A stretch of DNA of 64,000 nt, from NCBI GenBank assembly GCA_004282745.1, contig SHMT01000001.1, positions 62,001-126,000 of the forward strand, given 5' to 3'. Source of the DNA: Candidatus Scalindua sp. SCAELEC01. Lineage in GTDB: Bacteria; Planctomycetota; Brocadiia; Brocadiales; Scalinduaceae. This document shows positions 6,637 to 54,510 of this stretch, piece by piece. A program made the position numbers and the translations under genes. The stretch's first letter is position 1, and every line of letters starts with the position of its first letter. The notes below the pieces were generated by a model. That model was not told the DNA's origin. It ran no database searches and worked only from the letters and a program-made list of their open reading frames with translations.

Positions 6637-7266
6637 CTACTTTTTTGATAAAGATGTAATGATGGTTGAGCAGATTTTCCTTGAAATGTCAGCCATAGCA
6701 AGACTCATTGCCTTTGCGACAAATTCTGGATGTTTCTCTTCACATTTCTTTGTTGTTGAAAACTGTTTCTGGAAAATAACTTTCTTGCTGACATCAGTTT
6801 CACGAGAATCCAAAAGGGTAATATTTACAGACAAAACAACATTCCATCCGCTGTCAGAGTCCCACTCCAAGAATTCATCAATTCCCCCCTCAACTTTGTG
6901 TGTATAGGGAATGCTGCTATTATAGGAAGTGACCGCTTGAAACCTGCCACTGTTTCGCATGTCTCGACCGAGATAGAAAGTTACGAGATCTGCAGGATTG
7001 TTTCTCCATCTATGATAACGGTACGATGTGCGTTTAAAGTCCCGATCACGGAAGATAATACGGTCGGTATTGTAAAGTGGCGCTATACTGAATCGTTCTA
7101 GCCTGAGTATTGATGATAAGGGTATATCTTTCCCCTTTTGTTCAAAAGGTAACGTTTCATATTCCAAGGTATAATAGTCAATTTTGTGACTAGGTTGTTT
7201 CAGTGTCAGACAACCCTGTAGTGTAATAACAAAAACCAAAATCAGTAGAGTACCAATACGGCGCAC
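6637..7266 (-). CDS. ABC-type transport auxiliary lipoprotein (PqiC/YmbA-like)
   Basis: 209 residues, GTG start after AAGGGGC. The N-terminus is a lipoprotein signal with lipobox 'LQGC' (Cys at residue 19), followed by 'YYTLEYE', typical of the family that accompanies MCE transporters. The protein should be a lipid-anchored periplasmic partner linking the MlaD-type protein to the opposite membrane. It sits between mlaD and the sensor gene in the same operon. The family assignment rests on the lipobox, size and context more than on a strong motif. Confidence 0.75.
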   Translation of the reverse strand: MRRIGTLLILVFVITLQGCLTLKQPSHKIDYYTLEYETLPFEQKGKDIPLSSILRLERFSIAPLYNTDRIIFRDRDFKRTSYRYHRWRNNPADLVTFYLGRDMRNSGRFQAVTSYNSSIPYTHKVEGGIDEFLEWDSDSGWNVVLSVNITLLDSRETDVSKKVIFQKQFSTTKKCEEKHPEFVAKAMSLAMADISRKICSTIITSLSKK

Positions 7267-19789: not shown

Positions 19790-19819
19790 CTCAAACACAG
19801 GGTTTTCGTTCAGACACTA
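19790..19819. repeat. Palindromic-element end unit (solo)
   Basis: Nearly identical to the right end of the 45182-45330 element: 'CTCAAACACAGGG' then 'TTTTCGTTCAGACACTA'. Lies 16 nt beyond the pdaD stop (minus strand). Confidence 0.75.
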
Positions 19820-19834
19820 TTTATACACAATGAT

Positions 19835-36305: not shown

Positions 36306-36446
36306 TGTGTCGATCCCTTGATTATATATGGTCTTTCCATTTTTAAGTCTTCTTTAGGCTGGACTTACAAGATAATCAGGATATAAAGTATGTCTATCCT
36401 GTTATTCTGTTAAACTAAACAATTGCACTGCGTGGCGGAAACTCAC

Positions 36447-36570
36447 AAGTTGAACTAAAACTGCCCAGATACAAGGCGCGTAATTATTTTGTAACCGGAA
36501 CGTACTCAAGTACGTGAGGATTACGAAATTATTACAGCAACGCGGTAGGTGGGTAGTTTTAGTTCAACTT
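36447..36570. repeat. 124 bp palindromic element inside the nqr operon
   Basis: The ends 36447-36467 and 36550-36570 are inverted repeats matching at 20 of 21 positions ('AAGTTGAACTAAAACT.CCCA'). The core, 'GGCGCGTAA...GTAACCGGAA', palindrome CGTACTCAAGTACG, then 'TGAGGATTACGAAATT', is the same as the reverse complement of 45182-45330, yet the outer arms differ. It lies 3 nt past the nqrDE stop. Confidence 0.85.
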
Positions 36571-45154: not shown

Positions 45155-45517
45155 ATGGCGTTTGAATGAAAACTACCTGTCTAGTGTTTGAACGAAAACT
45201 ACCCATTTACTACGTTGCTGCAACAATTTCGAAATCCTCAAGTACAATTGTACTTTCCGGTTACGATATTGTTACGCGCCTTGTACCTGGGCACTTTTCA
45301 TTCAAACACAGGGTTTTCGTTCAGACACTATCTACTGCTTTGAATTGCCATTTTTCATCTCTCCTGCAATAAATATTTATTTCGTAATTGAAATTCATTA
45401 GATTACGGCCAATTTTATCAATATACTGAAGGGAAATGAAATAGTATTAAATGCGATAACGGTGAAACAGGTAAATCGTATCGCATTTCTCATGACGTGG
45501 AGAATAGAGAGAAATAT
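45155..45517. other. Intergenic region with a complete palindromic element
   Basis: About 363 bp. The palindromic element takes up 45182-45330. The remainder is AT-rich leader for the ABC exporter operon. Confidence 0.5.
45182..45330. repeat. 149 bp palindromic (MITE-like) element, family A
   Basis: Ends are inverted repeats: 'TAGTGTTTGAACGAAAAC' on the left against 'GTTTTCGTTCAGACACTA' on the right. The core reads 'ACGTTGCTGCAACAATTTCG', 'AAATCCTC', palindrome AAGTACAATTGTACTT, 'TCCGGTTACGATATTGTTA'. It is the same core, reversed, as 36447-36570. The right end is a tandem of two 'TTTTCRTTCARACAC' units. It starts 27 nt after the preceding stop. Confidence 0.85.
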
Positions 45518-53424: not shown

Positions 53425-54510
53425 AAACGCTTGAAGATTGAGTATGGGTAAGCGTTCAGAGGTTTAGAGTTCACCGTTCAGGGTTATCGGCCTTTATATT
53501 TCAGATTCAGCCCTCCCTTTGCAATGGATAAATGCAGAATTCGGATTATTATTCTGTTTTCTTAGTAATAAGGATCACCATACGTAACCAAGAGTGTAGA
53601 GCGTATTTTATGCACCGAAAACTGGATATACAAGAAATTACTTTTTCAAGCCCTTAATCTTCCTTTTGCTCTTTGCCTGCCAGTGCAAGTCCACACGTAG
53701 AGAGAAAGCTTCCAGCCAAGTCCATGCTCTTCACCATCTCTATACCATCCTGGTAGGTACGAGTGCGGTGAACTTTTTTTTCGACTCTCATGAGCAGCTT
53801 TGTAACTCCAATAGTTATAAATTACTTATTGACACCTGGTGCATAAAATGATAATAGCTATCCTTAGTATTACCAAGTAATTCATTTATGTCTTAACCTT
53901 ATTTACGATAATTGTATTTGTCGGTTTATTAAATGAAGCTGCTTTTGTTCAATCTTTCATTTTTCTCTATTCTTTCCCATTATCTGCATTTGAAGCAGAA
54001 AACAAATAATACAAATTACGTTTTAGTAAGTTTTGAACGCTTCACATTAAGTACAGTAACCGTTCATTATGCTCGTTTAAGGAGGATGGAAACGCGCAAA
54101 TTTTTTTCTCCAATTATGTAACGTTTTGCAGGCAATTCAACATTAAATTCTTTTATTGGCAAAGGCAAACTCTGGGTGATCAGGGGACGCAAAGTAAGGG
54201 TCTTTACACATTTGTGAGAATGGTTGAACGAAAACAACCCATTTATTTCGTTGCTGTAAAAAGTCAGACATCCTCTCGTACATTGGGACTCAAGTATTTG
54301 ACTCCTCGTACATTCCGGTTTAAGGGGATATCTTTGGCTTGAAGTAGAGATTTGATCCAGTTATGTAAAACAGAATTGCTAATAGCAATTTAGAATAGTT
54401 AGTAAGATTTAAATCATTATTGGCAATTTGTATGATAAATGGAGATGATGAACAACGAGGAAACAGTAAGGAATTATTACTCTGAAATTCTTTGAGCAAG
54501 GGATCAATAA
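53425..54510. other. Long intergenic region
   Basis: About 1.09 kb without a supported gene. It holds a degenerate palindromic element (54222-54326). Two open frames of about 60 codons (near 53666 and 53933) have no ribosome site or recognisable sequence. The stretch may be decayed coding or mobile DNA. Confidence 0.45.
54222..54326. repeat. Degenerate family A palindromic element
   Basis: Starts 'GGTTGAACGAAAACAACCC' and 'ATTTATTTCGTTGCTGTAA', close to the left part of 45182-45330, then 'ACATCCTCTCGTACATT' and 'CTCCTCGTACATTCCGGTT'. The central palindrome is replaced by two direct CTCGTACATT repeats and the right arm is not recognisable. Confidence 0.6.

Follow-up and report, generated by a model that had tools for sequence, protein, structure and literature searches.

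Two palindromic elements, at 36447–36570 and 45182–45330 of the window (the 64,000-nucleotide stretch analyzed here, G000:C88:62001–126000, G000 being the host assembly of 4.59 Mb in 104 contigs, 98.6% complete), raise the question of how elements with a like core can carry different outer arms that still pair within each element. An earlier note had read this combination as covariation, pointing to a selected DNA or RNA structure or to ends recognized as single-stranded hairpins. Both elements were indeed found at these positions, and the likeness of their cores was borne out: when one of them is reversed, they align over 118 bp with 81% identity. The arms differ and each is complementary to its own partner (AAGTTGAACTAAAACT/AGTTTTAGTTCAACTT in the 36447 element, TAGTGTTTGAACGAAAAC/GTTTTCGTTCAGACACTA in the 45182 element), and the centers differ as well (GTACTCAAGTAC and GTACAATTGTAC, respectively). 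However, the terminal arms are not unrelated, but represent diverged versions of one end sequence. Palindrome folding of both elements exceeds chance, with a z of −6.62 for 36334–36570 folded as DNA and of −6.82 for 45182–45330 folded as RNA; in neither case was any of 200 shuffles equally stable. An Rfam scan of the window gave nothing at threshold except one tRNA.

The 36447–36570 element (plus strand) belongs to a subfamily with AAG-type ends and is 86–95% identical to the other copies listed, the best 40 of 384 candidates scored. Its apex motif, GGAACGTACTCAAGTACGTGA, was located by pattern match at 36497–36517 (plus strand; G000:C88:98497–98517). The copy probably continues leftwards into 36334–36446 (plus strand), a partial palindrome (TTTAGGCTGGACTTACAAGATAATCAGGAT...ATCCTGTTATTCTGT) that is common to other AAG-type loci and has eight genome-wide matches, most of them at 78–84% and several adjoining collapsed AAG-type ends. 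The 45182–45330 element (minus strand; GTG...CAC proper at 45184–45328) is a B-type copy, the best 40 of 413 candidates scored being mostly 95–99% identical. Its apex, read from the sequence, is GGAAAGTACAATTGTACTTGA on the minus strand (45238–45258), and one of its sides bears two end copies in tandem, as is usual on one side of family members. This copy (C88 107182) is flanked by target-site repeats, TGTCTA on the left (45178–45183), with one mismatch to TATCTA on the right (45329–45334). The window also holds a degenerate partial copy at 54221–54290 (minus strand, 78.6% over 70 bp; C88:116221–116290) and an isolated fragment of a tandem end at 19791–19823 (minus strand, 97% over 33 bp; shown as C88:81791–81819).

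Using both window elements as blastn queries, we found 78 family places in 768 kb (four G000 contigs), about one per 10 kb, which extrapolates to roughly 460 places in G000. The exact ends TAGTGTYTGAAYGAAAAC occur 163 + 159 times across G000, the reversed pattern not once. In an alignment of 60 loci, 30 chosen with each window element as query, the ends fall into at least three types: B (GTGTTTGAACGAAAAC), G (GTGGTTGAACCAAAAC) and AAG (CAAGTTGAACTAAAAC). B copies are 95–99% identical to one another, and the non-B copies are older. By class of neighboring gene pair, 56 copies divide into 30 codirectional, 14 divergent and 12 convergent; none of the 56 lies inside an ORF, a count by which genic insertion cannot be judged, as the insertion itself would break a callable ORF. 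The palindrome family is also present in G001, a congener of G000, and an element-derived pattern run against the named genome collection returned only contigs of Candidatus Scalindua sp. RBC_AMX3 among the matches listed. The whole element had no match in phages at E 0.01, nor the B-type element in plasmids at E 1; its 43-bp core, searched up to E 10, matched mainly Enterobacterales records, 25 from plasmids and 15 from the phage collection, with a best E of 3e-4 and most matches weak. Two viral contigs matching ACGTACN4GTACGTGAGGA were set aside as low-complexity or coding by eye.

Short, non-coding and dispersed in many copies, with terminal inverted repeats and one clear empty site, the family has the hallmarks of MITEs; target duplications accompany the B and G types and are missing from the 36447 AAG-type copy. 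Among 55 copies fitted end to end on the four contigs (from the 78 places, 63 of them at least 60 bp long), 30 are flanked by exact 6-bp direct repeats just beyond GTG...CAC, compared to 4.75% when the left flank of one copy was set against the right flank of another, and 29 of the 30 repeats read TANNTA. Exact repeats flank 22 of 30 B copies and 8 of 25 G copies, the two types that this count covers; since the site ends in TA, the register is ambiguous for two of five duplication positions. As the 36447 copy has no detectable target duplication (three mismatches), it is assigned to the family by homology. An empty site was recognized at G000:C101:95069, where a copy splits a dispersed repeat; copies of that repeat without the insertion (four listed) contain AAGTTA once. 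In addition, 260-bp composites at four loci (G000:C101:121114–121373, 121532–121791 and 123338–123597; C99:6835–7094) carry a nested 107-bp insert at an identical internal position, indicating that the unit is mobile without an intact hairpin, which is interrupted in these composites.

Other repeats and a possible cargo were seen alongside. The dispersed repeat around G000:C101:95069 (...GAGAACAACAAGTTATTTTTTCCTGGGCCC) is a separate one with at least five copies, and the nested unit of about 107 bp is a second MITE (TATACTCATCTCATAATGG...ATCGGTTTTAGTATA) with TA flanks. At G000:C88:130533–131217, a full copy and a partial right end, each with TAGATA flanks, enclose an ORF that looks hemerythrin-like by eye, as if the ORF had been carried along.

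These palindromes are very probably MITEs whose ends are bound in trans by a DDE transposase of the ISNCY family, with insertion at TANNTA and duplication of 6 bp. Both in their ends, GTGTYTGAACGAAAAC, and in their TANNTA duplication, the elements agree with full-length ISNCY elements in other genera of the order. Full-length ISNCY transposases of Brocadiales score 416–470 bits (cut-off 325) and their genes sit between GTGTCTGAACGAAAAC-type ends; both ends could be read at 11 of these loci, and by reading, 6 of the 11 have exact TANNTA repeats, including all five in genomes G026 and G042. Searched in 59 relatives, the B element matched, besides G000 and G001, only three Brocadiaceae-type genomes, and these in its end sequence alone; at one of them the matching end borders a relic encoding the C-terminus of an ISNCY transposase. 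This protein, as a 119-aa ISNCY probe, had matches in 17 of the 59 genomes and none in G000 or G001. For a cognate intact transposase in G000, the family model gave two sub-cut-off fragments only (39.5 and 12.2 bits), one of them beside a different end (GTTTTTGTACGGAAAT), so that the partner is lost, extinct or absent from the assembly. A search for autonomous copies on the four contigs showed end motifs beyond the known copies to be no commoner than in shuffled sequence, relics excepted. From the family, its ends, the duplication, one empty site and matching autonomous elements in relatives, we infer that these copies were moved by an ISNCY-type transposase, of which the host assembly keeps only a relic. 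ISNCY relics at two G000 loci (L168 and L169, on C1 and C96) lie near a different end type, TANNTA-GTTTTTGTACGGAAAT, and another Brocadiales genome (G024, locus L123, about 380–520) contains a different short element with the same ISNCY-type ends. The ISNCY family NF033593 corresponds to the ISDol1 group.

An ISNCY DDE transposase supplied in trans would bind both ends of an element and insert it at a TANNTA site, duplicating 6 bp. The different yet complementary arms would then be versions of a terminal inverted repeat, changing together because both ends must fit one transposase.

Covariation was assessed on a tree of the 132 distinct sequences among 160 copies (17 of them from G001; sampled unevenly, loci outside the four contigs being best hits) against 1000 event-shuffled nulls. 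At paired columns of the arms, 28 same-branch double changes occurred (null mean 8.0, maximum 17), 26 of which keep the pair; the core had 22 (null mean 10.7, maximum 19), with 18 keeping the pair, and the middle section six (null 2.05, maximum 8), while slid partners, as a control, gave 1–11. The claim of covariation thus holds in aggregate, in the arms as in the core, but hardly pair by pair, with 2 of 51 pairs at E <0.05 (arm 4–123 and core 39–86) and no significant pair in an all-pairs test. The earlier note had named an absence of significant covariation in a larger copy set as the result that would speak against it, and this outcome was narrowly avoided. Covariation is real but modest. 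Its reading as a selected structure is plausible for the core but not for the arms, in which covariation is expected from the binding of both ends by one transposase. This account does not cover the core covariation, and the constraint on the interior has a cause other than end recognition.

Alternatively, complementarity may have been renewed by mutation rather than selection, via strand switching within a quasipalindrome or through conversion among copies, which we regard as possible though not probable. Indeed, 21 of 25 changes at broken arm pairs restore pairing and 41 of 56 double changes fall on tip branches, and the core covariation could stem from strand-switch quasipalindrome repair or inter-copy conversion. 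However, the mismatches at the apex (GGA versus GA) have stayed unrepaired and are the most conserved columns, and locus-specific ends in one orthologous pair (L181/C88:3289) speak against conversion of whole copies.

That pair joins G000 with G001, in which some copies occupy the same places as in G000. We compared six such pairs, four intact (about 82–88% identical, by fits 86.6–88.2%, one flank hardly alignable) and two degenerate; clearly, old copies persist in place. Such persistence would also suit a selected RNA structure, with copies acting as transcript hairpins in mRNA stability or processing and covariation reflecting this local function, a reading that we consider unlikely. It draws on the four intact copies at orthologous places, on the L181/C88:3289 pair, in which four double changes (0.88 expected) all maintain pairing, and on the 33 one-sided changes in the four intact pairs, 21 of which leave a standard pair; ERIC RNA is, moreover, credited with control of mRNA stability in PMC2229807. 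On the tree, however, one-sided changes mostly break pairs (93 of 139 in the arms, 131 of 206 in the core). Among the other orthologous pairs, L183 has one double change that keeps the pair, L186 has none paired on both sides, and L185 lacks double changes altogether, with 6 of its 11 single changes breaking pairing; the degenerate pairs L192 and L198 show no excess over expectation. In total, 22 double changes were counted (12.1 expected), 11 of which preserve pairing, and the excess lies in L181. In-place compensation is thus suggested by a single pair, L181/C88:3289.

Recognition of single-stranded hairpins by a Y1 transposase of the TnpA-REP or IS200/IS605 kind, which acts without target duplication, is very improbable, as the long hairpins and eight Y1_Tnp matches in the genome are outweighed by the 6-bp duplications, the empty site and the match to a DDE-type ISNCY element, and none of the eight genes, checked as candidate REP-associated partners, is linked to a copy (no copy in their 1.5-kb flanks; in longer stretches, two genes have their nearest copies at 6653 and 2625 bp and the other six have none). 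The apparent arm covariation is explained in that arms which differ yet remain complementary are required of the terminal repeats, as a pair, in a transposon of double-stranded DNA.

Returning to the ISNCY-type MITE reading, the constraint on the interior centers on the hairpin apex, a mismatched GGARC-NTAC-N4-GTAN-GTGA (consensus) that is the slowest-changing part of the element. The most conserved columns are CCGGA / TGAGGATT around GTACN4GTAC, which pair imperfectly. With 54 tip and 4 internal changes in its 24 columns, the apex differs from the rest of the core (238 and 89 in 52 columns) by an odds ratio of 5.0 (p 4e-4). The apex varied least in the lineages that multiplied, suggesting that it plays a part in propagation. 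Most likely, the hairpin of the interior, and its mismatched apex in particular, would be kept for propagation of the element, as a DNA hairpin or as a transcript.

In an untargeted search of plasmids, the window element matched an E. coli intergenic repeat over 34 bp (91%, E 2e-3). Of 5426 E. coli genomes, 5375 carry this repeat (AACCGGAGCGTACACAAGTACGTGAGGATTTCGA; loci L172, L246 and L248), at 1–8 places each (median 5). The pattern GGARCNTACN4GTANGTGA, picked afterwards with ERIC in mind, occurs 46 + 45 times in G000, 1 + 5 times in G001 and 5 + 4 times in one E. coli record, with one occurrence in the other 390 of 392 planctomycetes and none of the reversed pattern. Several of the E. coli matches contain the ERIC primer sequences, and ERIC is one of the repeats with this apex. 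Folds of the Scalindua element and of ERIC both place GA opposite GA beneath the apex stem. Judged from the sequences, the apex likeness may reflect homology or convergence. Tentatively, and with considerable doubt, we propose that an apex with paired GA mismatches could be a module conserved across phyla in otherwise unrelated mobile palindromes, including ERIC, that differ in ends and transposases, and needed for their propagation. ERIC is used worldwide for strain typing and, to our knowledge, its core has no accepted function. A shared apex module, if real, would give this unexplained core a role that is testable in E. coli and inferable elsewhere.

A very abundant repeat of an anammox bacterium is thereby explained as ISNCY-type MITEs, its covarying arms become explicable without a single-strand transposase, and its conserved tip is linked to ERIC. 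We found no prior description of a Scalindua palindrome family in titles and abstracts of the open-access literature, although such a search is weak as evidence of absence; as far as literature and database searches reach, ISNCY-type MITEs are new for this lineage.

Among known systems, ISNCY insertion sequences (NCBIfam NF033593) share the terminal repeat GTGTYTGAACGAAAAC and the 6-bp TANNTA duplication with the Scalindua element, but measure about 1.88 kb, whereas the latter is about 145 bp long and non-coding, with a tandem end on one side and an unrelated interior. ERIC of E. coli is likewise an intergenic imperfect palindrome with a similar apex (GGAGC-TTAC-N4-GTAA-GTGA) and a tandem GA/GA mismatch, and is described as MITE-like with target duplication in PMC2229807. 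The Scalindua element has this apex but neither the arms and ends of ERIC nor its length of 127 bp; its apex stem reads CGTAC instead of CTTAC, and it belongs to another phylum. Its likeness to the unnamed E. coli repeat is limited to the apex, none being seen outside. REP elements with RAYT resemble it in being palindromic, intergenic and multicopy, but the Scalindua element has target duplications and lacks RAYT linkage. Finally, Chunjie, RUP (which uses IS630 according to PMC2229807) and other bacterial MITEs are also non-autonomous, with inverted ends and target duplications, but have other ends and other transposase families.
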